Shown here in pieces: positions 4,128 to 54,955 of a stretch of DNA of 64,000 nucleotides. The stretch's first letter is position 1, and each line of letters begins with the position of its first letter. The notes under the pieces were generated by a model. That model saw only the letters and a program-made list of their open reading frames with translations, was not told where the DNA came from and did no database searches. Origin of the DNA: Chondrosia reniformis (lineage: Eukaryota; Porifera; Demospongiae; Chondrillida; Chondrillidae); contig OX359189.1 of NCBI GenBank assembly GCA_947172415.1, positions 3,052,501 to 3,116,500 on the forward strand. Direction: 5' to 3'. The translations under genes were made by a program, and so were the position numbers.

Positions 4128-4420
4128 TAGCCACACTGAAATTCTCAACTGCTGCATACAGAGTAGTAGTCTCTACAGATCATATAAGGTTAAACGCATG
4201 GCCTTCCAATTACCTTTTCACACCTTAGTATAGACTAAAGATGATGCATCTGCATGCCATTAGCAGCAAAAATTCCAGTCTCATGCAGGGGTTCTCAGCC
4301 AATAATCACCGCAGATTTGACTTGCCTTGAGTGTGAGCTAGGAGTACCGTTGGTTGCTTGCATGCATTCACATAAACAACAGGGTGAGAGACAATTTAGT
4401 AACTTGCACACAAGGGACAT
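4128..4420 (+). repeat. MITE copy with the empty target site of the large transposon
   Basis: Diverged copy of the repeat family whose other copy is split at 40705/54508. Shared words include CCAATTACCTTTTCACACC on the left and GATGATGCATCTGCATGCC on the right. Here the two halves are joined as TTAGTATAGACT at 4225-4236, so the TA at 4231-4232 marks an unoccupied insertion site. It overlaps the 3' side of the sushi gene region. Confidence 0.85.
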
Positions 4421-29500: not shown

Positions 29501-32500
29501 CTTGCCAAAATGGTTGCCGTGACTGTCTTCTCCACCACCATAAGAGCTTCCTTGATGTCATCTAGTTTCCCTCGTACAATAATTCATGGCTGGGCGGTTG
29601 GGACATTTTCAGCTGCCTCCAAAACACTATCACCATCCTATGTAGCGAACAAAATTCAGAAAATACACACGATACGTATATCATGCCATGTACAAGTAAG
29701 TACATGTATATAAGTGCATGCTATAGTGTAAAAGCTATTATGTACACAAATTATGCTCAAGTGAAAACTGCAGTGTTGTAACTATGCTACAATATTATGA
29801 TTTTTCTGAAGATTTATGAGTACTAGGATGTGGGCAGATACATGCAGGTATACCTACCTCAAGTAGAGTGATCACTCGTGATAGATCTGGTTATGTACGT
29901 GTATCAGGCAGAAGGTGGTAGAGTAAGCACAAAGCAACTACAGTTTTGCTGTCTGTTGTAGTAAAAAGGCAAAAGAAAGACATGTACACGTATAGTCCCA
30001 ATATTAATGATTGCATGCGTGCAAACGATGTAATTAGTTCATAAAAAGAAGTGCAGGTGTTGTCAAAGGTAAAATATGTACATGAAGAAATAGAATTCTA
30101 TTTGCTAGAATTTGCAGCCACCAAGGTGATGGTGGTTGGCTGCATCCTCGTGAGCTCCCCTGATTTCCATCTATTGCAAGTGTAGTCTTCGGCCGACTTT
30201 CCGCTACAGAAATTCTTGTCTTACATGTTAGTGGACTTCATCAACTATGTGAAATGTTAGTGACCTTCACTAATTGTTATGTCACCACCGTGTAGTGAAC
30301 GCTGGAGGTGGTGAATGTCACTACATTTGGTAGTGATGTTCACCACAATGTTTTTACAGTGAAATTCTTTCAGTTTTTCATTGGTGCACATTGGAAAGCA
30401 CACCCGAAGTTGACTGAGTAGTCCCTTGCTGCTCTCTTTAAAGGGGAACATTCCCAAGCCACAACTTTACTTTTGTCTAGGGATGCAGCAAGGAACTGCC
30501 CAGTCAAAGTACATAGTTTGCTCCCTGCCAAGACTGGTCAGTTCACCTGTCTTGGTATTACACTGCCCATGCCTGTTAAGCAAGACAGTGAATGGTTTTT
30601 CCCAGACCAGATCTCTGTCTGGAACCTTAGCGGTAAATTGCCATTCAGTCTTATAGAAGTTTGTTCGCTTTGTGCCCAGATTTAATTGTTTTACTCTCTT
30701 TGTAATATATCTATACTTGGCAAGCAGAGCTTCAGCCAAACTGTCAGTTACAAGCAATGATCTTTCCAAGACTTCCATCAATTTTGGGATAACCTCCTTG
30801 ATTTCAGCCAAGGATGTGGCAACTAATATGCCATTCAGTAGGTTGTATATCTCCTTGCTTCAAGTATAAAGGTTATAGAAGCCTCATAAAACCAAGTTTA
30901 AGTCAATCACTATTTTAAGCAAATTAATCATATACAAATCTCCCCTCTATATTCCTTATCTACATGCATCACTGTATACCTTATTACTTTTTCCAAATGC
31001 ATGTGCTAGTCATTGTTGCAAGCACTGCCATCCCTTCTTCTAACTTCTCTTTAGATTTTTATTATAACTTGTATTTACTGCATATCGGGAATTGAATGCG
31101 TGTGTCAAAAGAATGCGTATTGCGAGTTTTGACTGTATGCGCAATCTTTTGACACGTATTGATTTGACACCTCATAATTTCGTATACACGTCCCGTACAC
31201 CTAAGCTTTATCTCACATTCTTTAACCACAATGTTTACTTAAACGCGTAATTCGCAATCTTTAACTCTCGCATTCATATCCCGATATACGGTATTAGATT
31301 ATTATATAGCTTTCAATTTATAGTTGATAGGATGATGGTGGCCCTGGTTGGTAGGATGATGGTGGCCCCGGTTGGTAGGATGATGGTGGTCCCGGTTGGT
31401 AGGATGATGGTGGCCCCAGTTGGTAGGATGATGGTGGCCCCGGTTGATAGGATGATGGTGGCCCCGGTTGATAGGATGATGGTGGCCCCGGTTGGTAGGA
31501 TGATGGTGGCCCCGGTTGGTAGGATGCTGGTGGCCCTGGTTGGTAGGATGATGGTGGCCCCAGTTGGTAGGGTAATTGTGTGTAAGGCATTAGTATTGTT
31601 GGTTGGTTCAGAAGCTGAACACCAGGTGGCCTTGTATAATTATTATACCGTGACCTAAGGTAAAAAGGCACAAAAACTTGGTATGCTTTTCTTTTTGATG
31701 CCTCCTAAGTGAACTGGGTTCTGTGTACCTCTTTCACAACCAGGTTATAAGCAAGCATACTTTTTCTGTATATATACAAAGAAAAGATTATTATACAAAA
31801 TACATTGATATACGTACATATACAAAACAGTTGTCAAACGTCAATTATCTGAACGTCAATTATATAAATTGTCGATTATCCGAACGTCGTCGCAAGATGC
31901 TGACTCAGCCAAAAATGGCCACCAACCAACGTAAGAGAACTGTACTAAGTGTAGACCAGAAGTTTGAGATCTGCAAACGATTAAAGAAAGGGGCTACTAT
32001 TACTTCACTTTTGAAGGAATTGAATATTGGGAAGTTGATGATTTGTGATATAAAGCGAAATGAAGAAAAATTGGTCACTTTTGTTGAGAAACTCTTCTTT
32101 ACTTCTATAACTTCTTTTTTCATGACATGCAGTATATTTACTGTAGGGGGAGAGGTTTTTGTGTTACAGTACTACCAATTATGCATTCACTTTGTTCATG
32201 GTGTAATGCTGTTTGATTATACGTACTTTTTCATTTTACGAACAGGCTAATCCCCAATTAGTTTGGATAATTGACTTTCTACTGTATACAATTTTTGGGA
32301 GTATTTAGTATACTGAAGATTTAGCTGGGTATCACTTATGTATGAGCTACCAAGTTGAGGGTGTACTCTAAACCAGCAGTGATCAAGGCTCTCTGGGATA
32401 GCCCCTCCATTTTCATTTGGTTCTTGGTTATAGGTACCACCTACAATGATATCAACCTGATTGTAGTTAACTCCAAAAGATCCTTATAAAGATCCTTCAA

Positions 32501-40435: not shown

Positions 40436-40705
40436 AATATATAAAATATTAAAAATACAATCAAGTACTACACAGTACAAGTTACAATTATAAGAGATCC
40501 AAGTGACTATGTAATATTAAAGTTACAATCAAGTACTAGCTACACAGTGCAAGTTAGAAATCCAAGTGACCCCTAGGATAATCAGTAGTATAGTTGCATA
40601 CTTTGAAATCCTCAACTACTGCATAGAGAGTAGTAGTTGATACAGATCATCCAATTGCAAGCTAGAACACATGGCCTACCAATTACCTTTTCACACCTTA
40701 GTATA
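40436..40705 (+). repeat. Left half of the MITE split by the CACTA-like element
   Basis: Left inverted arm (AAAAATACAATCAAGTACTA) up to the target TA at 40704-40705. The right half resumes at 54508, and the two arms are reverse complements. The joined family member is at 4128-4420. Confidence 0.85.
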
Positions 40706-40874
40706 CACTGTTAAAACACTGGTGTATATTATACACCAATTTGGGGGTTATAAACACCGTTCACTAAACCCACCAATGGTGGGTTTAAAGCTGGTGTGTT
40801 ACAACCACTGCTCACTACACAAATCATCACTCACAGGTTATAATTCGCTGGTGACATGATTCCTGTACATCCCA

Positions 40875-40931
40875 TCCTAGCTGATGAGCCCTGGCATTGG
40901 GCGAAACAGGTAGAACCTGCCTGTCCTAGGA
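40875..40931 (+). ncRNA. Type I hammerhead self-cleaving ribozyme
   Basis: All core nucleotides are present: CTGATGA at 40881-40887, GAAA at 40903-40906, and the cleavage triplet G-T-C at 40923-40925. Stem I is six perfect pairs (TCCTAG 40875-40880 with CTAGGA 40926-40931). Stem II is GCCC 40888-40891 with GGGC 40899-40902 around a 7-base loop. Stem III is ACAGG (the last A of GAAA and 40907-40910) with CCTGT 40920-40924 around a 9-base loop. Predicted cleavage is after C40925. It lies 169 bp inside the left end of the transposon and reads inward. Activity is inferred, not shown. Confidence 0.85.
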
Positions 40932-41070
40932 AGTGGAGCTAATATACGTATACGTGTACATGTCACTGAGTAATTGTTGATATACGTATTTCATATACGC
41001 TTAGTTTAATGCCACAAAGTGCATATACTGGTTGACAAGCAGGAAGAACCACAGACAACTGATCCAAATG

Positions 41071-41128
41071 ATGAAGTAAATGACCTTTTTATCAGTGCTC
41101 CCATTGATAAAAAGGTCATTTACTTCAT
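41071..41128. repeat. Perfect 24-bp-arm hairpin
   Basis: ATGAAGTAAATGACCTTTTT then ATCA, a spacer of about ten bases, then the exact complement. It lies just outside the inverted-repeat block. Confidence 0.8.
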
Positions 41129-41362
41129 ATATAGACACACAAATGACAGTTACACTGAAGGGCTCTCCTATATGCTTAGAGGTCAAGTACCCTATTAACA
41201 AGTTGTATTATACACACTATAATCTCAATTTCTCTGTCAACCTAGACAAAGAAACAAAACCTGTGAATAGAAAGGTCAACAAAAAGTATATATTAAAGTC
41301 GTGGACAAAACCTCAATAAATTCCCTTAAGCCATCTGCAATTAGTAAAAAAATACAAGCCAT

Positions 41363-42863
41363 GTCCACTGTAAGTATACATTAAAACTATTTAATTTGTC
41401 TTAAATATATGTTATTTCATTTCAGTTCTCAGTCTTTAGAATGTAAATGTTTCTTTCAAACACTGAATCTAAGAATCCAAATTAATATGGATTGGTTTTG
41501 TGCTGTAAGAAATAGTTACATTCAAAGGTCAAATCTATATACAGCCTTCTTAACAAGCTTTTCCTATCTGTCATATACACTTACATGGCTTCTCTGTTTA
41601 AACAGTTGTGGTTTAGAAATATGTACATTTTCTGATATTAATTGCATGTAAAAATAAGAAATGATGCAATTGAATAATCAAGGGGTCAAAAGTTTGCTTA
41701 CATCTGTAGACTTGTATGGCTTCAGAGACACAATTAGTAAAAAAATACAAGCCATGTGCACTTTGCTCTGTTCCATATGTGGTTCACTTTTGGGACCAGC
41801 ACCAAAGAAATTGGCCATTAAAGGATATTTGGTGTTGCTCCTAGAAATGAAGCCATATTGATAAAACGTTGCGAAACCATACTTTGTGAATGCTATACTG
41901 CTAACCACCTCATACAAATGCAATCTATCTAACAAGCTTTAACTATTAATGTAGTTCTTTGCAAGTTAATATATTTATTAGTAAATTTCTTATAGGGTTT
42001 TTTGGATTTGATTAAGAAATGGCAAACAAAACACTATCATTAGGATGCAATTCCTGTGCATTTTAAACAAAACATTTTAAAAGTATATTAAAGTCTCGGA
42101 CAAAGAGCTCAATAAATTCCCTTAGGCAATCTGCGGGATCCCAATCTGTGTTACTACGAGCAAGTAAGCGTAGCATAGCCATTAAAAAAATAGAACCAAT
42201 CCTATTATGGACTTAATGGTTACATTTAATTAAAAGTTTTGCTACACACGCATGGATAGTGCTGCTATGCATGGTGTATTTATAAGAATTTTGAAGATTA
42301 ATCCTCATTTATAGGTTAGAATAAAACGTACATTCAAGGAAAAGAATGCAAAAGGATTTTACTATGCACACACTGAAATATCCATTCACACAAAAACATG
42401 TCCTTTACTCACCTTCAATTGTGTACTCTTGTATGGCTTTTGTCCTTGTAAGGCTTCTTATAGATGACCCTTTTGGTGAAGTAATAATCAAACTGTTAAT
42501 GGACATTCTCTGTCACCCTAGACAAAGAAACAAATAGAAGGTGTTTGTTATTTAAATGGCTTGGTGACCTTTCTATTTACAAGTTTTGTTTCTTTGTCTA
42601 GGGTGACAGAGAAATTGAGATTAGTGTGTATAATACAACTTGTTAATGGGGTACATAACCTCTAAGCTATTAAAGGACAGACGATAAATTCTGATTGTAT
42701 ATACATATAAGATGCCACTTTCTCATGCATAGTAGGAATAAATTTAAACACACAACCAATCATTTGAGGGCCTGAAAGGGTGAGCGTGTTTAAATCCATT
42801 GCTTCGTGCATGAGGGAATTGTATGGCGCAACGTTATGGCACAGACAAGGTTACACGTAGTAA
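41363..42863. repeat. Left arm of a large inverted repeat inside the transposon
   Basis: Reverse-complement copy of 46460-47795, with small indels. Matching landmarks include the hairpin pair at 42511-42612 built on TCTGTCACCCTAGACAAAG, the ORF-like segment KYPLMANFFGAGPKSEPHM (minus here, plus in the other arm), and the inner end TTACACGTAGTAA. The conserved open segment is not a family I recognise. Confidence 0.85.
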
Positions 42864-43019
42864 GGTTATTTAGCCTTAAGCTAGGGTTGGTGAATCGGTG
42901 TCACCATACTTACTTTCGGCTTGGGCATCGAGCGCCTCTACTTTAACTTTAACATATCTTGGCAGGCTTCGAATATCCCAACTAGAACTTTACAACACGA
43001 GTCAATTAATCCTCGAGTT

Positions 43020-43176
43020 TTAGATAAACGTTTACGTTAACGTTGATAACGCGTAGGTTACGATACTGCCTTAGAATATCACAATAATATTATAATCATA
43101 ACGCCACATAACGTTATATTATTAGTACGCGTCCTATACAATATAAATTGTTAATCTGTGTCACGAACGTTTTGCG
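43020..43176 (+). repeat. Direct repeat flanking the RGM-like gene, copy 1
   Basis: About 155 bp (TTAGATAAACGTTTACGTTA through GTACGCGTCCTATACAATAT), repeated in the same orientation at 45982-46139 with a few changes. Confidence 0.85.
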
Positions 43177-43191
43177 TAGTCAGTACGAATA

Positions 43192-43575
43192 ATGGAATTA
43201 AGTTTAGCTTCACTTCCACTGGAACCGACACCCCAAATGGAGGAGGCTCCACAGGTTAGCGATTGTACTGCCTACGAGAGTCTCCCCTGTGACAAGGCAA
43301 GTGACAGGAGTGGGGCACTATTAGTACCAAAGCAAGAGAGAATATTCAATCCGATATACGGGGCTGGCGGCGGCGCCACGTCCACATCCTTCAAAGGTAA
43401 CGCCCCCAAGAAGCCTCCTCTCTCACTTACTACTGTCTCCCTCTCTCTTCCTCTCTCACGTACTGCTGTCTCCCTCCCTCTTCCTCTCTCACGTACTACT
43501 ATCTCCCTCCCTCTTCCTCTCTCACGTACTACTCTCTCTCTCTCTCCCATATTTCTAGTTTCACATTTTTATTAG
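43192..43575 (+). CDS. Unidentified reading frame, possible first exon running into a 33-bp TC-rich minisatellite
   Basis: ATG at 43192 opens MELSLASLPLEPTPQMEEAP and continues through ERIFNPIYGAGGGATSTSFK to a GTAACG donor after 43396. Read through, it becomes an 11-residue repeat (SLPLPLSRTTI type) from the 33-bp minisatellite at about 43420-43550. An inverted fragment of its ESLPCDKASDRSG region sits at 46403-46437. No partner exon was found. It could be a captured first exon of a host gene. Confidence 0.35.
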   Translation: MELSLASLPLEPTPQMEEAPQVSDCTAYESLPCDKASDRSGALLVPKQERIFNPIYGAGGGATSTSFKGNAPKKPPLSLTTVSLSLPLSRTAVSLPLPLSRTTISLPLPLSRTTLSLSPIFLVSHFY

Positions 43576-44139
43576 AGTGACACTTGCAAATCAAAATATG
43601 ATGTATGCACTAGGCCAGACTGGGCCCATGAGTCCCTATAATATATAAAATACAAGGGTCATGTTCAGTTTTAAAATACCATATCACAGATCAGAATCGA
43701 AGCTACATCTAAAGAGTTTCAACCAGTATTACTATATCTCTTCCTTGATTTCTTGCAATTGCATGGACATGGGTCTCTATTGATGACTGTAATATATATA
43801 TCTGACACATTTATCGGAAAATTGACACCATATAGTAAGGTACTATCAACAATCCAATGTTCTCAAGCCTAAATCATTCTAAATGGGTCTGCTGAGGATA
43901 CAGGTCATTGTGTATACAGATAAGAGTAAAATACAATGAAAATAAACTATATCACTTTAATTATGGATATATTATGAGTATCAAAATCATTCAATGAATA
44001 TTATCAATTAATTAAAAATTCTGTAGCAGGAATCAAGTGCTAGGTATACAATTACAATAAATTAAATGAAAAAAACAAATATAAACAAAAAGTACTTATA
44101 CATGGCAAAACTGTATATAGGAAAGGGGAAAATATAAAT

Positions 44140-45653
44140 TCATCTATGGTGGGAGACAGCTGGCAGAAAAAGGGTGTCCTCCCCCGCCAGCTTGCTTAGT
44201 AGAACCATTTCAAAGTCGGCTGCCTTGTATATATCAAATTGACAAATCTCATACAAGAAGGGTGGACCCCTCAACTGAAAATTATTAAAGACATGTTCTC
44301 TGGAGCTGCACTGAAGGAGAGACAACATATAATTGGTTGGACAATAGCTCTTTAGTTCACTGATAAATGTCTTCATTTGAACAAGTCTGGCGTGAGCAGG
44401 ACAGCCAGAGTTACACAATCCACTGTCTTTGAGCAGGAGGTGAGGCGGAGCCTGTATGGTCACCACAAAGTGGCCCTTGGCCAGTCGAATACTGATGGTC
44501 ACGTTGTAACTGAAGGATCGAATGAGAGCTGAACCATTTCTGTGAGCTTCAGAGTAACTTGCCTCTACTCGAAGCATACCATCTGATGATAATATTGTTG
44601 CATCAGTAAAGGTTACAGGAAAAGTTCCTACACTTGCTTTGAACAGCTTCTCTTCATGACAAGCATTAGAGTAGAACTTGACAGAAACCTGCAGAACAGT
44701 TAATTTTATGCAATATACGTGCATCATTACATAACACCACTGCAAGCGTGTAATGAAACTTTAACAGGTGACCTTACATGTTTATGATATTCAACGCAAC
44801 TAAGTCAGGTCTATAATATATAAAGCTTTTACAACATAATTCGAGTTACTCACTAGCACCCCCACCCATGTATGATGCTAAAAATGGTTTACCTCATTTA
44901 TCTGCGTGACAGTTTCAGCGGCTGACTTGCGAGGTACCATATTATCGACTGTCACCTCCAGGACTCCAGGGTACTTCATGAGGTACCACTTTCCAGGAGT
45001 GAAACAGGTGGAGATCTCATCAGAGTTAAAGGAGCTCAAATGGGAGAAGGAGAAGTAGCTACAAAACTTTAGTTCTGTGTTCTCCACATTCAGAGGGCAC
45101 CCTCTGGCCAGTGGAGGGTTGGTCCTGTAGCTCATGCTCTGAGGAATGGAGACAATTGGGTCAAACGTGGTGTTCTCCAGGAGAGCCATGTTCCTGACGA
45201 GGGAGCATTCAGAGGAGTCAGTTGGCTCTTCAGTTGGAGGTGGGGGAGGGATTGTAGTTGGACTGTCAGTGCAGTTCAAACTTTCCCTTCTCCTCTTGAG
45301 ATTGACCACCATTAGGGTGAGTGTGAAGCTGCAGCCCTCTCCTAATCTACGAAAGCACGATATGGCCTCAAGTAGCTCGGAGCAGACCATATCTCGATCC
45401 AGGTCCTCCAGCTCCTCCGCTGAGGCAGTGAGGGACACTGTTTGCCGGCAGCTATGTCTCAGATAGTGAGGGTCACAGTTTTGAGCAAGAACTACAAGAA
45501 CACAAAAGGTGGCAGTGCACACTACACCTTAATTGGTTAGGGAAGTGGGATGGCTGCTGTAACAGGAAGAAAGTAAATTGGGTGAGAGCAATAACACTTA
45601 CACTCACCAGAGTGGGTCGCTAGAAAGCCCAGGAGAATTGTAAAAGCGTACAT
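44140..45653 (-). CDS. RGM-like (repulsive guidance molecule / hemojuvelin family) secreted protein
   Basis: Three exons, 45653-45608, 45491-44893 and 44688-44140, give 397 codons in one frame. Exon 1 is a signal peptide (MYAFTILLGFLATHS). An N-terminal cysteine-rich helical part follows (CRQTVSLTASAEELEDLDRD to FTLTLMVVNLKRRRESLNC), then a proline-rich hinge. The C-terminal RGM domain covers CFTPGKWYLMKYPGVLEVTV, VSVKFYSNACHEEKLFKASV, FVVTIQAPPHLLLKDSGLCN and YEICQFDIYKAADFEMVLLS. Family members bind neogenin and BMPs. Two differences are visible: the GDPH autocleavage site is replaced (SFSHL at that place), and there is no hydrophobic GPI tail, the protein ending near FLPAVSHHR. It lies inside the transposon between direct and inverted repeats. 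Family assignment is by motif recognition; orthology is not proven. Confidence 0.75.
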
Positions 45654-45981
45654 GATTTAGGCCACAAGGAAACGTCTGGGCCGTGGTTGTGTAGCATAAA
45701 AGAGCCTGACTTACTAACCTTTCACACATAATTGTATAATGAATACTATTATAAAATCGTTGAATCACCTCTTTTCACTTAAAACAACAATCAAACAAAT
45801 GATATCAACATCTACTTGACGTACATACCAAGCATGGCACTACGCAAGTTTTAAAGTACGTACAGGTGGACTTACGAAAGAAATGAGCGGAGAAGCCTCT
45901 TACTGACAATGGAATCGTATTGGGTCTTTTCCTGCTGGAAACGTGTAGGTTACAAAACTTCCGTAGAATACTATATCAATA

Positions 45982-46139
45982 TTAGATAAACGTTTACGTT
46001 AACGTTGATAACGCGTAGGTTACGAAACTGCCTTAGAATATCAATATCAATAATATTATAATCATAACGCAACGTTACGTTATATTAATAGTACGCGTCC
46101 TATACAATATAAATTGTAAACTGTATCACTGACGTTTGC
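45982..46139 (+). repeat. Direct repeat flanking the RGM-like gene, copy 2
   Basis: Same-orientation copy of 43020-43176; the two copies bracket the RGM-like gene and the MELSL frame. Confidence 0.85.
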
Positions 46140-46174
46140 TCTTTATATTATACTAATAGAACGTACAGTATAAT

Positions 46175-46228
46175 CATAGATCTTATATACTTACGTAACG
46201 TACGTTACGTAAGTATATAAGATCTATG
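46175..46228. repeat. Perfect 54-bp palindrome without spacer
   Basis: The left half CATAGATCTTATATACTTAC and seven more bases is followed directly by its exact reverse complement, so both strands read the same over 54 bases. It can extrude as a cruciform. Confidence 0.95.
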
Positions 46229-46459
46229 GTATAATGATGCTAGACGTTTTGTAACCTATACGCTTGTTTCCTACTCATTTGCCTGAAATCGTTAAAAGGT
46301 GAGTCTTTTTGTTACCATTTTGGAACGATTATTAAGAGATTTTCTAATAAATAAACTTACACTAATAGTTAAAGTTTTGTGTTTAAATTTATTCCTACTT
46401 TAATCCACTCCTGTCACTTGCCTTATCACAGGGGAGAGTAACCTAGTCTGATAAAATCA

Positions 46460-47795
46460 TTACTACGTGTAACCTTGTCTGTGCCATAACGTTGCGCCAT
46501 ACAATTCCCTCATGCACGAAGGAATGTATTTAAACACGCTCACCCTTTCAGGCCCTCAAATGATTGGTTGTGTGTTTAAATTTATTCCTACTATGCATGA
46601 GAAAGTGACATCTTATATGTATATACAATCAGAATTTATCGTCTGTCCTTTAATAGCTTAGAGGTTATGTACCCCATTAACAAGTTGTATTATACACACT
46701 AATCTCAATTTCTCTGTCACCCTAGACAAAGAAACAAAACTTGTAAATAGAAAGGTCACCAAGCCATTTAAATAACAAACACCTTCTATTTGTTTCTTTG
46801 TCTAGGGTGACAGAGAATGTCCATTAACAGTTTGATTATTGCTTCACCAAAAGGGTCATCTCAAGAAGCCTTACAAGGACAAAAGCCATACAAGAGTACA
46901 CAATTGAAGGTGAGTAAAGGACATGTTTTTGTGTGAATGGATACTAAAATCCTTTTGCATTCTTTTCCTTGAAAGTACGTTTTATTCTAACCTAGTCTGA
47001 TAAAATCATAACGTTGCGCCATACTATTCCCTCATGCATGAAGGAATGTATTTAATTAGAAATGTGGTCTGTACGTAAATGTCTACTGCATAAATACACC
47101 ATGCATAGCAGCACTATCCATGTGTGTGTAGCAAAACTTTTAATTAAATGTAACCATTAAGTCCCTAATAGGATTGGTTCTATTTTTTTAATGGCTATGC
47201 TACACTTACTATAGTTAAAGCTTGTTAGAAAGATTGCATTTGTATGAGGTGGTTAGCAGTATAGCATTCACAAAGTATGGTTTTGCAACGTTTTCTCCAT
47301 ATGGCTTCATTTCTAGGAGCAACACCAAATATCCTTTAATGGCCAATTTCTTTGGTGCTGGTCCCAAAAGTGAACCACATATGGAACAGTGCAAAGTGCA
47401 CATGGCTTGTATTTTTTACTAATTGTGTCTCTGAAGCCATACAAGTCTACAGATGTAAGCAAACTTTTGACCCCTTGATTATTCAATTGCATCATTTCTT
47501 ATTTTTACATGCAATTAATATCAGAAAATGTACATATTTCTAAACCACAACTGTTTAAACAGAGAAGCCATGTAAGTGTATATGACAAATAGATAGGAAA
47601 AGCCTGTTAAGAAGGCTGTATATAGATTTGACCTTTGAATGTAACTATTTCTTACAGCACAAAACCAATCCATATTAATTTGGATTCTTAGATTTAGTGT
47701 TTGAAAGAAACATTTACATTCTAAAGACTGAAAACTGAAATGAAATAACATATATTTAAGACAAATTTAATAATTGTAGTGGACTAATCTTTTAG
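46460..47795. repeat. Right arm of the large inverted repeat
   Basis: Inverted copy of 41363-42863, ending 86 bp from the stop codon of the transposase-like gene. It also contains the inverted TCTGTCACCCTAGACAAAG hairpin pair. Confidence 0.85.
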
Positions 47796-47881
47796 ATTGG
47801 TTGTGGCTTTTAAAAAAGCCAATTGAAATAAAAGCAATGGATAACAATAAGGGACAAAGTGAATAACAATAAAAAAACTAA

Positions 47882-50800
47882 TTAAAAGAAACCGTATTTT
47901 GTAGATATAACAAGTTTACTGGATAGTCTATGTGTAGTCATGCAGTGATAATCAATAAGAGATGTTAGTGGTATACAGAAAATGTTAGGGTTGATACTTT
48001 TAATTGCGTAACAATGAAAATGATGATTAAATTCCGATTCCACTTGCTGTACTATAAAGAAAACTTGCTTATTTAAGTCTTTTATTATTTTTTGAATCTC
48101 GCAAAACACTGGGGACTCATTCTCTATGGCTGTAACTACTATTTTTTTGGGACGGAAGTACACATTGTGCACAAGTAAGCATTGTACTCTGAATAAAATG
48201 TAATACAAATACACATAAATAATTGTTAGCTTTTTTGTCTTAATTAAAATACTTACTGAGAGAAGTCTGAGGATATGGAATGCTGTTTCACCATTTCGAC
48301 TTCCACACTGTTGTCATCAATTGGTGATTCTGTATAAATGGTTGTGAAACATTAGTAGTGCTCTCTACATTCATATATGAACACATGCATTGTCACTTTA
48401 CATGAGTGTGAGCATACCTTCCCTAAATTCTGAGCCTGACTTAAGCACAGACCCCATCAATTGATAACAAGAGAGCCTTTGGTGTCTCTTGGATAAAGAC
48501 TTCGGTACATTAATGAAGTTACCCAAAGTGTGGGCCAGCTTCTTAAAATATTGGTGCTTAGCTTCGAACCGCATGCACCACAGCCGACTTAAAGGACCAT
48601 ATCTAATTCAGTAGACAGAAAATTAGTCATGTACCTATACATACATATTACTTTGTGTAAGCCCTACTTTTCAATGAAATCTGGATAATGCACCATATAG
48701 TGCATCTTGGGTATTATAGAACGATTAGGATACAAAGTCCTAAATGTTGAATGATGAATCTATAATTACAAACATTAATATGTGCATACATATATATATA
48801 TAAATATAAAAATACCTATGCACACAATGTATGTATACTTACATACCTTGATAAGTATTCTCAAATATGAAACTTGATCTTCTGAGATACAAGGGGCAAA
48901 TAGAATATCCATAATTTCCAACAATAGAAGAAAGCATTCCCAATTTTCATTTCTTTCTGGAATCAGGTCACCAATAAGTAAAGGTAGATACCGGCCAAGG
49001 CACCATAACTGTGAAGCTACATAATTGCAACACTTCATTAATTGATTGAAAAGGCATACATGAATGACTTTGTTACCTGACTGTTTAAAACTTGTATCAT
49101 TTGTATTAAGGTTGGCAAGTAAAATTTGTGATGGCTTGTTTGTTCTGTCCTCTTCTCCATAAGGGTACGCCTTGATACGGTTATTAAGCTGGTCCAGAGT
49201 GAAGATTCTATCAAGAAGAAATTGACTAAGCAACAGCTTTATCTCTAAAGGGAGTGCTCCCTCTAAGACATCATGCATGATGTCTGGTGGTAAGCCATCA
49301 ATTATATGGAAATATCTCAGCGAATTCAGGATTGAATTTCTAGACACACCATATGTAGTGGCAATGTGGCTTCCTAAAGTATCCCCTAGAGCACTACAGT
49401 ACTGAGTGTGACTTTCCACTGTTCTCATTTGCAACTCCTCTGTACTAAACTATATAAATAAACAGAATGAGTAATTATTATTATATTATTTTTATACACG
49501 TACAAAAGTCTGTTAACCTTTGAATCAATGTCCTTATTAGTTGCCATGCAAAATCTACATTTCCTCATGGCAGACTGCAATCCAATGAAACCACCCAAGG
49601 CTTGACTAGCCAAATTATCTGCTGACACAGCCACCACTGTGCCAAACAGCTTTTGACTTTGGCCATGGACAGTAAAATAAATTCCCTAATATGTAAAACA
49701 TACAACATATGTAGAGCCATGCGTGAATGCATTTTTCAAGGTATACAGATGTCTTTAGAAGGTATTATATATGTACCTCTTCTAATTCCTTTATACGAGA
49801 CACAAAGGATTCCAGAATAGTATCCAAACTGTACTTCTTGATATACGCGTGTTTGATAACAGTAATTAGTTGGATGTTCTGCAAGCTTGATCTATATTCA
49901 GGGTGGATGTTTGACAAAGTGTAATAAAATAGACCTATACAAGATAACAGAAGTATTTAAGTCAATAATGCATGCAAAATTGTATATACCAGTGAAATTA
50001 CCCAGCTTATGGATTTTGGCCTTAGAACCCAGAGGATTGCAAACTTCAACATCATCATAGTAAAGGTGTATTTGAACACCCTTTGCATTGGCACCAAAGA
50101 GAGGGTTGGTTAGGAATATATGTCCATCACACAAGTCCCGCAACTTTCCATCTTTGGACTGGTGACTCCTGAGAACCTAAATGTAATTAAGAAATAAATT
50201 GCAGTTCAATATATTCTCATTCATGCTTAATGTATTTATATATATACAGTATATTGTAACTTGCACTGTATATATACCTGTGAGGCCACATCTGAATTGT
50301 TCAACAAAGCTTGCAAGGACTCCAAGACATCTACTTCATAGGTACAGTCCCATACTTTGCGTACAACTGACTTACCTTTTCTGTAAAATGTTTTGAATGT
50401 GCAGCCTAAACGTCGTTCTTTTGGTGCCTACAATGCCACAATTTATATATGCACATAAAAGGTTACATACGTATATGTACATATTAACTATTTACACTCA
50501 CCACAAGTCCAAAATTATCGGAAAAAAATTTTGATTGACGATACTCTGTGTCTAAGTCTGCAAAAGGTGATACTACATTTGTTGACATGAAAGTATCCTC
50601 TACTTCCTGTACTAATTCCTCATTTTCTGTTTTTTTAATTAGATTGATGACTTGCTCCTTAGTGTGATCCAGAACAAGGTTCACAAATGATGTGATGTCA
50701 CTTAGCAGAAGATCTACAGTTTTCTAATTATCATATGTATTAGAAGAAGACATGTATATATACACACATTAATAGATAGTTTAGCTTGCATATGCATGTT

Positions 50801-51186
50801 GCACTAAATCTAACTTGAGGTAGTTGTCTTTCCTCCTTAATTTTTAGAATAAATAGAGCTTTAGCTCTCTTGAAAGCCAGTTCTTTTTCAATTATACTGC
50901 TTTCCTCAGGAAAATCGTCCACTACTTCACCAAATTCGTCCTCCACTGTCACATCACATTGCCACTCGTCATTGGTTGTAATGATTGCTTGGCTTAAATC
51001 TAAATGATCCCTGTGTTGACGATAGATATGCTTTTTGAGCGATTCAACTTTATGGTAAGATCTTCGGCAACCGCGAACACAACAATCTACGGAAAATCCT
51101 GGTTCGTTCTCGTGAATCCTCAGATGATTAAGGATTGTCAGTAAAGTCCGAGCTTTAAACAAACGGCAATAGGGACACGAATACAT
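47882..51186 (-). CDS. C2H2 zinc-finger, CACTA-type transposase-like protein
   Basis: Eleven exons, 51186-50815, 50723-50502, 50427-50278, 50176-50002, 49934-49777, 49685-49518, 49449-48847, 48759-48668, 48602-48418, 48329-48257 and 48188-47882, give 834 intact codons. The N-terminus has two C2H2-type units (YSCPYCRLFKARTLLTILNH and CCVRGCRRSYHKVESLKKHI). Characteristic blocks of the family follow: VCNPLGSKAKIHKLG, FYYTLSNIHPEYRSS, GTVVAVSADNLASQALGGF with RKCRFCM, GLPPDIMHDVLEGALPLEIK, PKMHYMVHYPDFI and GPLSRLWCMRFEAKHQYFKK. Proteins with this PPDIMHDVLEG block are repeated in many animal genomes and resemble tnp2/CACTA transposases. That it mobilises this element is inferred from its position. 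An ATG 18 bases upstream (51204) is an alternative start. It is head to head with the SAMD3-like gene. Confidence 0.85.
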
Positions 51187-51204
51187 TTTTAAAAGAGGAT
51201 TCAT

Positions 51205-51472
51205 AAAATCATTACTTATATATAAGGTTTTCGTAAATAGGTATAAACAGAAATAACAGAAATAACAGAAATAACAATAAATTAACAAGAATGTGACTGT
51301 TTATTCTCGCGCATGAGTGTGGAATGCGTATGTATCTTAGCGACTGTAGTGAGAAAGTTAAACCCAATTCTTCAATCATTCTACGTATATCGTTTGTGAG
51401 TGTAGTGAGAAAGTTAAACCCAATTCTTCAATCATTCTACGTATATCGTTTATTTACTCGTGAGTTAAGGAA
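51205..51472. promoter_or_regulatory. Bidirectional promoter region with a 56-bp tandem duplication
   Basis: Interval between the two divergent transposon genes. Positions 51345-51400 are repeated at 51401-51451 (TGTAGTGAGAAAGTTAAACC and onward), ending 21 bases before the plus-strand ATG. The repeat may hold duplicated binding sites. Confidence 0.55.
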
Positions 51473-54163
51473 ATGAAACTGCTTCTACTTTACAAGGATA
51501 GAAAAAGGCCTGTGACAGTGCCCGATGAAGGAAACGTCGTCGAAAATATAAGGGTGGCGTTTCAGTCAGCATTCCAAACAAATTTGACTGTAAATTTTAC
51601 CGTGTACTCGGAAGAATGGCAGGAATACATCGATATTGACTGTGAAGAGATTAAATCAGGATCGAAAATAATGATTACCTCAGTAGACGCTTGTGAAAAT
51701 AAAAATCAGGTATCAGTGGAATCTGCAATATCTCTTCCCGATTCGGAAGTGGTGAAGAAAGAAGATCCAGACAAAGTAAGATATTATATATATAGCGCTT
51801 GACAATATACTGTTATAATAAATAAATAAATAGTGATTTTTATTAACATGACATGTTGCAATGCTGGAAAGATTAATATAGAATAGCCCAACCCATGGTG
51901 GGTTTAAAAGTCACTGGTAGGGTATATATAAAACTGAGATCAGTTCAAGGGCCTGGGAGGTTGCGCGCATAAACCTGATGGGTCAAAATTTATGAGAATG
52001 AATGAGTGATTAATGAACGTACATACTGTAAATATAATTAGAGATTTTATGATTTGGGAATGTAAGGATAATATATAGATCATAACTACTTAATCTAAAA
52101 AGAATAGAATACAAATATACAATTAATGATTAATAAGAAAAATTAATAGAAAAAAGGAAAATAGTATTAATGATATATCTAGAAAAGTAATTTAATATGC
52201 AAATATACACCCTTATATTGTCTACTTGGTTTTGTATGTATAGCTCCATGCAGATCTGCATGTATATAGAATTCATCGCTTGTGCATTTAGGTTCCACTC
52301 CAAGATTGCACTAATGTGCAAGGTGTCCTGCAAAAAAATAAAATTAAGGAAGAGTACATAATTCTTGATGAGACTGAGTCTGAAATACCAAACCCATTTC
52401 CTTTTCCAAAGTTCCCCCTTGATGTTGCAGTAGCATTACAGAAAGGAGAAATAACTGCAAGAGCACATCGTGAATTAATTAGTGGTGTGGCAAGAGCTAT
52501 GTTTAGTTTTAAGAGACATCCAACAGCAGAGGATAGGAGAAGGGTAGCTAATGAAATTGTATCCAAGTATCCTTCCTTGAGAACACCAGGAAAGAATGCT
52601 GCAGTGAGTATAAAAATATATATAATGTAATTATACAGCAAGTGAGAAAAAAACTGAGGGATTCAAATCAATTAAGAATAATCAAAGGGGGAAAAGGTTC
52701 CTAATTTGTTAAAATGATCAATGGCAAGTGTATATATTTTGCTGAACCTTAATGTCCTCAAGACAATAACTTATATAATTCCACATACATGCAAGCAGTA
52801 CATTCTTGCATTGAGGAATATGGTATATAGAAGGCTATGACGTGATCCAATATTGTGAAATTCATTAATTATACATGCATATATTGCATTTTTTGCGATG
52901 TAAGATTACTAGCTTACTAGAATTGCCTATAATATATGTGTCTCTTTTGTACAGTCCGGTGTTTCTGAAGCAATACGTTCACGCTTCAAGGAATACAACA
53001 GAAGACCTGTTAATTCACCTTTAAAAGATAAACCTCTGCCAAAAAAGAGAAAGTTGACACCCAAACTACCTGCAGTAGAAGACAAGTTTGCACAACGCCT
53101 ACATGTATGTTCGCAAATGCAATCAAAAATGCTATAGTTGTTGTGATACATATACATAATACTGATGTATTATAACATTTTTTATAGGATTTGCATAATG
53201 GTGAAGATGACTTATCCTATGAACGCAATCATGCAATGTTGAAAACCTTACATGCTAAACCAAACACAGATGCTGGGGTCATTAAAAAACTAATGGAACT
53301 TACCTGGGAAAGGAGACATCATGACATTATTACCAATCCTGCAGATGTTTTAGTTCTCCTTGAAAGGTACCCCTACCTAGGTGAAAAGGATTATGTAAGT
53401 TTAGCAAGTATATGTAGGCTAATTAATAATATATATACCTATATATGTTGGTTGTTCTATTTAGGTAATACATCAGTTTACATTAATGTGTAAGAGTGTG
53501 GATTCTGGGGCTTGGTCTATTTGGAAGGAGCGAATAATGAAGTTGGCAGCTCGAGAAAAGAAGATTATGGAACAACTACAATCTTCAGATGACAATGGTA
53601 AGTATGTTCGTGCATTTTGTAGTCACTAAAATTGACATGCATCCTGGTTGTTAATTTACTAAAATCCTATTCCATGTTATACAGACAATATCAAGGCCCT
53701 TAAAAGCCTAATTATGTTGCTGGCCACAAGAAACACGAAAACCAAGGACAACCTTGATCACCTGTGTTTATATGTTCCAGTAAGTACATATATCCACAGG
53801 TATATACGTATATATATGTATATTATTATTTGCCAAGTATATTTGTTCATCTTTTAAATTAATGAATTCTTATAGGAAAACCTTCCACTAGATGAGGCAG
53901 CAAAGTTGCCAACCAATAGTATGCCATGCATACTATATAAGGGTGGGCAGCTTTTCTTATCTGTTGATAAGATACCACTCTTTGAAGTGTCACCACAAGA
54001 GGCAGCCATGGCACTCCTGGCCTCACACTATGTATTCAACATAGCTTATCCCATGGGATTGGAGCAGGTGTTTTCTTTTTTGGAGTTTGTCTTTTTAGGC
54101 AAACTCCCAAAGAAACAAGGGAACACCTTTTCACGGGTGTTTTCCGAACTTAATTCTATTTAA
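51473..54163 (+). CDS. SAMD3-like partner protein of the transposon
   Basis: Seven exons, 51473-51775, 52292-52603, 52955-53104, 53188-53394, 53465-53597, 53685-53779 and 53876-54163, give 495 intact codons. The N-terminal part (MKLLLLYKDRKRPVTVPDEG, then VYSEEWQEYIDID) has the look of a ubiquitin-like/PB1-type domain. It is followed by a basic helical region (RRRVANEIVSKYPSLR, IRSRFKEYNRRP) with a nuclear-signal-like PKKRKL. The end SVDKIPLFEVSPQEAAMALL and SHYVFNIAYP is typical of proteins named sterile alpha motif domain-containing 3-like, although no SAM domain is evident here. Such genes are multi-copy in many animals. The head-to-head pairing with the transposase-like gene suggests it is the second gene of the element; its biochemical role is unknown. 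Confidence 0.8.
51825..52010 (-). mobile_element. LINE 3'-end copy
   Basis: Reverse complement resembles 63310-63490, the end of the LINE at 62533: shared AAACCCACCATGGGTTGGGC, CATGT and TTAATAAAAATCA, then a short-repeat tail (ATTT here, ATT there). It sits in intron 1 of the SAMD3-like gene. Confidence 0.75.
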
Positions 54164-54288
54164 TTTTTATTTATATGTTAAACTTTATTACTTAAACATA
54201 ACTATTTTTTATTAACTTCATCAAGTTAACATATTTACTTTTAACTATTTTTCATTATTGTTTTGTATTTCTATATTGTATGCATTTT

Positions 54289-54294
54289 AATAAA
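54289..54294 (+). terminator. Poly(A) signal of the SAMD3-like gene
   Basis: AATAAA 125 bases after the stop codon. Confidence 0.6.
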
Positions 54295-54507
54295 ATAATT
54301 AAATGGACAACTATGAATTTAGTTAAATAATTTACAAGCACTAATTAAGCATTCATTTACAATCTAGGAGAAACCTGGTGGGTACCATCAATTAACACTC
54401 ATAGATGCCAGCTAGTGGCTGTTACCCACCACATAGTGGTGGGTTAGCAGGGACAGAGTTAACCCACCACTTTTGGTGGGGGATAAACACCATCAATTTT
54501 CACAGTG

Positions 54508-54955
54508 TAGACTGAAGATGATGCATCTGCATGCCATATATCAACAAAGGTTCCAGTCTTAAAGGGGTCTCAGCTAATAACCACAGCAGATTTGATTTGC
54601 ATTGTGAGGGAGCTAAGAATACCGACGGTCGGTTGCATGCATGCATTCACATAATCAACAGGGTTAGAGACCATTTTGTAACTTGTACGCAAGGGACATC
54701 ATATGACATACGTATATAAAGGCCTTGGCCTTTTATGTCCTTGCATAGTTGTAGTTGAGGATTTCAAAGTATGCAACTATACTATTTAAAATACTGATTA
54801 TCCTAGGGGTCACTTGGATTTCTAACTTGCACTGTGTAGCTAGTACTTGATTGTAACTTTAATATTACATAGTCACTTGGATCTCTTATATAATTGTAAG
54901 TTAAACTTGTACTGTGTAGTACTTGATTGTATTTTTAATATTATATACTATATAG
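54508..54955 (+). repeat. Right half of the split MITE
   Basis: Resumes at the TA 54508-54509. Its inverted arm, 54735-54955, is the reverse complement of 40436-40660. From 54521 it is also part of the tandem duplication. Confidence 0.85.

Follow-up and report, generated by a model that had tools for sequence, protein, structure and literature searches.

The hammerhead ribozyme at positions 40875-40931 of the window (the whole 64,000-nucleotide stretch of DNA that was analysed) is very probably a resident and selected part of the ends of a CACTA-like DNA transposon. The copies share a common layout, the ribozyme is constrained, and the element end was located beside 19 of the 29 loci examined; therefore, residence and selection are the most likely reading of these sequence comparisons. 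The role that the ribozyme might play for its host element is proposed with less confidence.

The hammerhead motif and its copies

The motif lies on the plus strand and begins with the 5ʹ strand of stem I (TCCTAG, 40875-40880), followed by the catalytic core letters CTGATGA (40881-40887), stem II (GCCC and GGGC with the loop TGGCATT, 40888-40902), the core letters GAAA (40903-40906) and stem III (CAGGTAG and CTGCCTG with the loop AAC, 40907-40923; seven base pairs, one of them G-U). TC then completes the cleavage triplet GTC (40923-40925), and CTAGGA (40926-40931) is the partner strand of stem I. Together with an outer stem I (40870-40872 and 40935-40937), the type I ribozyme covers 40870..40937, as supported by the Rfam model, the fold and the covariation of copies. 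The core and the triplet were read from the sequence, both parts of stem I and stem II were assigned by fold and covariation, and stem III was assigned by fold and by pairs that covary across families. The cut is predicted after C40925, which we take from the standard hammerhead rule.

The invariant core CTGATGA/GAAA, an NUH triplet, three stems and an open stem I place the motif in type I. All core letters and the triplet were found where the original prediction had put them. The 5-bp stem III it gave was too short, as the modelled stem has 7 bp plus an A-U pair, and its stem I was understated, being extended in the model by outer pairs past a small internal loop. When 295 nt of RNA from the element end were folded, the hammerhead was again predicted, as both the MFE and the centroid structure, and the ribozyme in the window is predicted to fold as a monomer. 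When six ribozymes were folded, the hammerhead was the MFE structure in four (window, L004, L010 and L016); the MFE structure of L075 had a partly different core, and L025, which has a mutated core, took another fold.

From the window sequence by itself the call would be uncertain, because the Rfam model Hammerhead_1 (RF00163) gave 24.8 bits against a gathering score of 34 (E = 0.00029 for 156 bases), and because chance alone would give a loose core pattern 0.33 times in a window of this composition. The Rfam scan of the whole window gave no match at the gathering score. The Infernal check suggested in the original prediction thus matched the type I model, but below the gathering score, and the statement that a chance match was very unlikely did not hold for the lone sequence. 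It was restored by the copies in the genome. The pattern of the ribozyme family, with up to three mismatches, was found at 28 places in the genome and at 0 with the reversed control, and the pattern CTGATGAGN{8,26}CGAAAC, in which all hammerhead families are pooled, gave 312 genome matches versus 3 for the reversed controls; therefore, chance was excluded. At the level of sequence, the type I hammerhead at 40875-40931 is confirmed as real. No match was found in viral contigs.

For the 29 loci examined, the more divergent members L028 and L075 were added through other searches, and one family place with three mismatches (C9:2622821) was left out. The pattern CTGATGAG...CGAAAC was intact in 23 of these loci and broken in six; L019, counted among the 23, is without the 3ʹ half of the ribozyme. 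Decayed cores are seen in L005 and L022. A covariance model built from 23 copies scored the window at 90.7 bits, although the window copy (L001) belonged to the training set. Other hammerhead families were also observed genome-wide (TCCTAATAAGGA, CCCAAATGAGGG and CCCTAAAGAGGG), whose stem III (CAGCTG) is a palindrome without a loop, for example at C3:1599837-1600235 and C6:4724360-4724997. Some of them lie about 354 bp apart in tandem, and others form inverted pairs.

A CACTA-like host element

The element that carries the ribozyme spans 13.8 kb (40706..54507, CACTGTTAAAACACTGG ... CAATTTTCACAGTG), as delimited by a boundary shared among copies, by right-end homologues and by rejoining of the flanks. 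Its ends are CACTG...CAGTG, the target-site duplication is TA, and the terminal repeat is short and imperfect (left CACTGTTAAAA, right CACTGTGAAAA). Among aligned copies the left border CACTGTTAAAACACTGG was sharp. The left flank (40604..40705, plus strand), whose last bases TA are the duplication, is part of a dispersed repeat that served as the insertion target, and is 83% identical to window 4137-4236; the repeat continues in the right flank (54508..54699, plus strand, first bases TA), which is 83% identical to window 4227-4420. The uninterrupted target paralogue (~4137-4420, 83% identical) is thus present in the same window, and joining the flanks minus one TA gave the order of this paralogue.

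The left terminus with its subterminal inverted short repeats occupies 40706..40874 (plus strand), as judged from the sequence and aligned copies. The ribozyme begins 169 bp inside this end and reads inward, and the predicted cut lies 220 nt from the border. The right terminus (54293..54507, plus strand) was recognised from homologues at seven other places and has no ribozyme; when four right ends were scanned with the ribozyme covariance model, no ribozyme was found. The original prediction had put the ribozyme 169 bp inside the terminus of a cut-and-paste DNA transposon. The distance is exact with the element beginning at 40706, and the type of host was borne out by both ends, the 2-bp duplication, the uninterrupted paralogue and a transposase gene.

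The transposase gene has several exons on the minus strand (47882..51300), with its 3ʹ end toward the ribozyme end, and was recognised from open reading frames, relatives and a weak Plavaka match. The joined frames matched Plavaka (PF18759) with E = 0.0059 and 16.3 bits, under the cut-off of 26.3. No Transposase_21 match was found in the transposase of the window; a relative at C7:787966-788922 shares 40% identity over 315 residues and overlaps a Transposase_21 match whose score, 29.4 bits, is slightly above the cut-off of 28.6. A second gene (51464..54163, plus strand), divergent from the transposase gene and ending near the right terminus, was defined from open reading frames here and similar ones in L093. 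No reverse transcriptase was found in the nine element ORF translations scanned.

CACTA/EnSpm transposons are characterised by CACTA/CACTG inverted termini, a 2-3 bp duplication, a tnp2/Transposase_21-type transposase and gene capture, and animal CACTA elements have 2-bp target-site duplications. Inverted CACTG termini and a 2-bp duplication are present in the window element, which resembles this group in its CACTG...CAGTG ends, short duplication and gene capture, and has a transposase with a relative that overlaps a Transposase_21 match. CACTA-like is the best label for the host, because of the CACTG ends, the 2-bp duplication and the transposase relative that overlaps Transposase_21. A MULE/Mutator host was rejected in view of the 2-bp duplication and the transposase common to both-ended copies. 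A MULE domain (PF10551, E = 5.7e-9), accompanied by a weak match to SWIM (E = 0.042), was observed at L089 (C1:4865800-4873000), in or beside the L006 copy of the element; this transposase domain lies about 6 kb inside that copy, and the gene may be a secondary insertion. Description of family A, to which the window copy belongs, as a 370-bp or 975-bp element proved wrong, as the copies share more sequence past an insertion.

Between the left end and the transposase gene, inverted arms (41379-42863 and 46460-47781; 41379..47781 in all, unstranded) were identified by self-comparison and by comparison with L002. They surround a captured RGM-like gene fragment in two pieces (44140-45528, minus strand; PF06534, E = 1.9e-12 and 0.0044). 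The region of about 41945-48061 is missing from L002, the copy on C8. An RGM (repulsive guidance molecule) fragment, 99.4% identical over 1169 bp, is also carried by the L003 copy on C7 (C7:1478361-1478897), and a third RGM_C match (C4:14052-14582) may be the parent gene. Two further features were observed in the window. At 41071-41128 there is a palindrome with 27-bp arms, which contains CACTGATAAAAAGG-like ends set back to back, and family A copies diverge there. At 30345-30361 of the minus strand, CACTGTAAAAACATTGTGGTGAACATCAC resembles the terminus of another such element, with no ribozyme match.

Element families and conservation of the ribozyme

Among the seven other places with right-end homologues, three sit 7.6-10.5 kb downstream of the left ends of other ribozyme copies. 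Both ends were located for five elements. Besides the window element, these were the C8 copy (7.8 kb, TT/TT duplication), two C4 copies (10.7 kb, TA/TA, right end CAAAGTG), which are probably one duplicated region, and an element at C5:2295552-2319980 (~24 kb, with the pairing of its ends inferred). In four of the five (the window, C8 and both C4 elements) the ribozyme is found 154-169 bp in from the left terminus and reads inward, with the transposase on the opposite strand. The C5 element has lost the ribozyme region, and its first ~25 bp run directly into the body. The C8 copy (C8:3813817) was 97% identical to the window over the left 1.24 kb and about 68-71% identical in the transposase and second-gene regions, so it looks as if element ends had been exchanged between families.

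The end sequence was sought at all 29 loci. An end of the form CACTGTWAAAA, with at most one mismatch and within 250 bp, was found upstream of the ribozyme in 19 loci, at distances of 77-179 bp and oriented like the ribozyme, and the reversed end was found upstream in none. Five control stretches of equal length gave 0, 0, 3, 0 and 0 ends; the three were those of L001, L002 and L075, located downstream and reversed. The 19 loci represent four families: A (seven loci), B (nine), D (L013 and L024) and E (L075). The ten loci without this end were L016-L019, L023, L025-L027, and L005 and L007 of family A, which have changed ends. The border of family B rests on L028, because seven of the eight compared loci share sequence upstream of CACTG as well and only L028 parts there. 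The L024 element seemingly interrupts an open frame, presumably pogo-like, exactly at CACTG. At L015, a family B locus, a Transposase_21 match on the minus strand lies about 4.4 kb inward and, if part of the element, would give a layout like that of family A. At L027 (C1:3940779), the ribozyme is sense to a related transposase and lies about 235 bp downstream of it. A ribozyme was found within 15 kb in five of 30 places with a related transposase, by our own grouping and with 65 of 152 candidates scored. No element borders were found for the C-type loci.

Other frames were seen near some of the ribozymes. Upstream of the B-type ribozyme, L011, L012, L014, L015 and L020 have opposite-strand frames that contain GRPxGTTAxAGY repeats in tandem, and the frame of L020 has a match to DUF5568 (E = 1.2e-33) and a weak one to zinc ribbons. 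A histidine phosphatase-like frame (PF00300, E = 1.8e-7 in L016) lies about 0.5 kb downstream of the C-type ribozyme in L016, L018 and L027, and is common to the copies. A RAG/Transib-like identity for an ORF upstream of L016 was discarded, as Pfam gave nothing and the structure library gave chance-level matches only.

Pairing of the stems was tested on 23 aligned copies (21 distinct) with 500 shuffles, using the structure derived from these same sequences. Standard pairs were found in 89.7% of pair cells versus a shuffle mean of 86.1%, which none of the 500 shuffles reached. When the partners were slid by one column, 41.6 or 49.7% were paired, a control that favours the structure because it came from the same sequences. 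Cells changed on both sides numbered 29 versus 14.8 expected, again reached in none of the 500 shuffles. Pairs with two-sided change (6 versus 5.2) and further pair types (16 versus 17.2) were not above the shuffles, and two of the five structure measures were thus no better than shuffling (198 and 439 of 500). The exchanges were concentrated in stem III, where GC and AU were swapped (12 and 9 rows), and in outer stem I, where UA and CG were swapped (11 and 8 rows); stems I and II showed almost no variation among aligned copies. Stem III varied between copies in length, loop and sequence, with pairing retained, and the unpaired catalytic letters were about as conserved as the stems. The covariation called for by the original prediction was seen in the exchanges on both sides of pairs in stem III and in outer stem I and in the excess of paired cells, and the outcome that it had named as refuting, copies without stem conservation, did not appear: the stems were conserved and partly covarying.

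Constraint was also evident within family A. In six copies (L001, L002, L004, L006, L007 and L008), counting columns with at least five letters, one of 53 columns varied in the ribozyme versus 89 of 291 in the flanks (41/164 left, 48/127 right; Fisher p = 7.6e-7, with columns treated as independent). Three copies were excluded: L003, which matches L001 and L002 at 97-98% identity; L009, which is almost the same as L008; and L005, which has decayed. In this alignment, variability is lowest in 57-column windows that begin within three columns of the ribozyme. With L005 added, the pairwise difference was 3.2% in the ribozyme, 12.3% on the left and 17.3% on the right. Between most of the element families compared, alignment was confined to about -18 to +63 relative to the core; it reached further for loci of one family and for some C-type pairs.

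A possible role at the element border

We propose that the ribozyme would act in cis on RNA that crosses the left end inward. Such RNA would be started by outside host promoters or by the terminus itself, and would be antisense to the transposase gene. The processing of read-through transcripts from the left, which the original prediction had offered as its first possibility, would agree with this anatomy. Cleavage after C40925 would deprive the upstream piece of a poly(A) tail and give the inner piece a 5ʹ-OH in place of a cap, leading to quick decay. The cut would thereby end host read-through at the element border and shield the transposase gene from silencing by antisense or double-stranded RNA. 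A resident and selected ribozyme combined with this mechanism comes, in our estimate, just short of an even call, and for the cleavage of inward RNA taken separately we are somewhat less sure.

Alternatively, the terminus could hold a promoter, and the ribozyme could trim the 5ʹ end of an inward transcript made by the element, either non-coding or directed to the second gene. HDV-like ribozymes trim the 5ʹ end in this way for R2-type retroelements, whose RNA obtains its 5ʹ end through the cut. The inward orientation and, in 19 of 29 loci, a distance of 77-179 bp to the terminus would suit a start near the end. However, more than 10 kb lie between the terminus and the start of the second gene, which diverges from the transposase gene in the middle of the element, and transposition of a DNA element does not depend on a precise RNA 5ʹ end, so that we consider this explanation unlikely. 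The ribozyme of the window does resemble those of the R2 type in its predicted self-cleavage, in its place at the element border and in its proposed action on co-transcripts from outside, but it has another fold, and the cut in R2 serves to make the end of the retrotransposon RNA.

The ribozyme might instead be a passenger, derived from a single insertion of a retrozyme or a Penelope-like ribozyme near an element end and copied along since then. One-time capture is a plausible origin, and the genome contains hundreds of other hammerhead patterns, some of them about 354 bp apart in tandem, in the manner of Penelope-like elements or retrozymes. Animal non-LTR retrozymes are described as non-autonomous repeats of retroelement type, about 170-400 nt long and mostly arranged in tandem, that give circular RNA; like the window element, they are mobile elements that carry a type I hammerhead with a stable stem III (PMC7229834). 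In the window, however, a single motif lies in a DNA transposon of 13.8 kb that encodes a transposase and has a 2-bp duplication, and no tandem hammerhead units of about 170-400 bp were found at the element. A nested retrozyme, which the original prediction had offered as a second possibility, is disfavoured by the single motif, by the lack of a tandem unit and by the same place and orientation in several diverged families, and a satellite unit was rejected for want of a tandem repeat.

Penelope-like elements and Terminons also carry hammerheads near the terminal region of an autonomous mobile element; these are described as minimal hammerheads in retroelements, without helix III or loop interactions and possibly acting as dimers (PMC7761336, PMC6431247). 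Unlike them, the ribozyme of the window has several pairs in stem III, a predicted monomer fold and a transposase element as its host, in which no reverse transcriptase was found among the nine ORF translations scanned. Stem III is full and is not of the palindromic CAGCTG type frequent in the other families of this genome. A passenger would also fit poorly with a ribozyme that is much more conserved than its flanks and is common to families whose flanks no longer align. We therefore judge a passenger to be improbable.

A comparably improbable explanation is that the ribozyme tunes the sense mRNA of the transposase or of another element gene, with the C-type ribozyme in the 3ʹ region of a gene removing the poly(A) tail. 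The same-strand position downstream of the transposase at L027 would agree with this, as would the ribozymes of L016 and L018, about 90 nt past the stop codon of an upstream ORF. The ribozyme is, however, antisense to the transposase in the window, C8 and C4 elements, and the C-type loci gave no element borders. Slightly less probable still is that the sequence is kept as DNA, as a transposase-binding site or a cruciform, with ribozyme activity being incidental. Transposases of the CACTA-like kind bind subterminal DNA, and the subterminal place and the short inverted repeats in the neighbouring segment would be in keeping with such a site, but the conservation of the unpaired catalytic letters is about equal to that of the stems, pairing in stem III persists although its length, loop and sequence vary, and ten of 29 loci have no nearby end. 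Least probable is a ribozyme without function, conserved through recent homogenisation of element ends by gene conversion: the near-identical left end of the C8 copy beside its diverged body speaks for it, but the flanks should then be homogenised too, and 89 of their 291 columns vary versus one of 53 in the ribozyme.

Cleavage of inward RNA by a resident ribozyme does not follow as a general rule. The ten loci without an end, the sense orientation at L027, the five of 30 transposase places with a ribozyme and the loss in the C5 element all run counter to it, and the right end has no ribozyme although inward RNA there would be antisense to the second gene. We know of no CACTA/EnSpm transposon with a ribozyme, and a search of titles and abstract openings in the open-licence literature did not turn up a hammerhead in any eukaryotic DNA transposon.

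Genomic animal hammerheads have mostly been explained through RNA-based replication, as in retrozymes and Penelope-like elements. A hammerhead that is conserved in a recurring position within a DNA transposon does not fit easily into that scheme, and therefore offers a clean case for asking what a ribozyme does for an element that does not need its own RNA as a template. It may be, and we suggest this more tentatively again than the mechanism, that a lineage of class II transposons adopted the hammerhead as a lasting border device, an insulator unrelated to retrotransposition that would destroy RNA reading in from one side and protect the transposase from antisense silencing. Antisense control, insulation from read-through and escape from small-RNA silencing would become testable.
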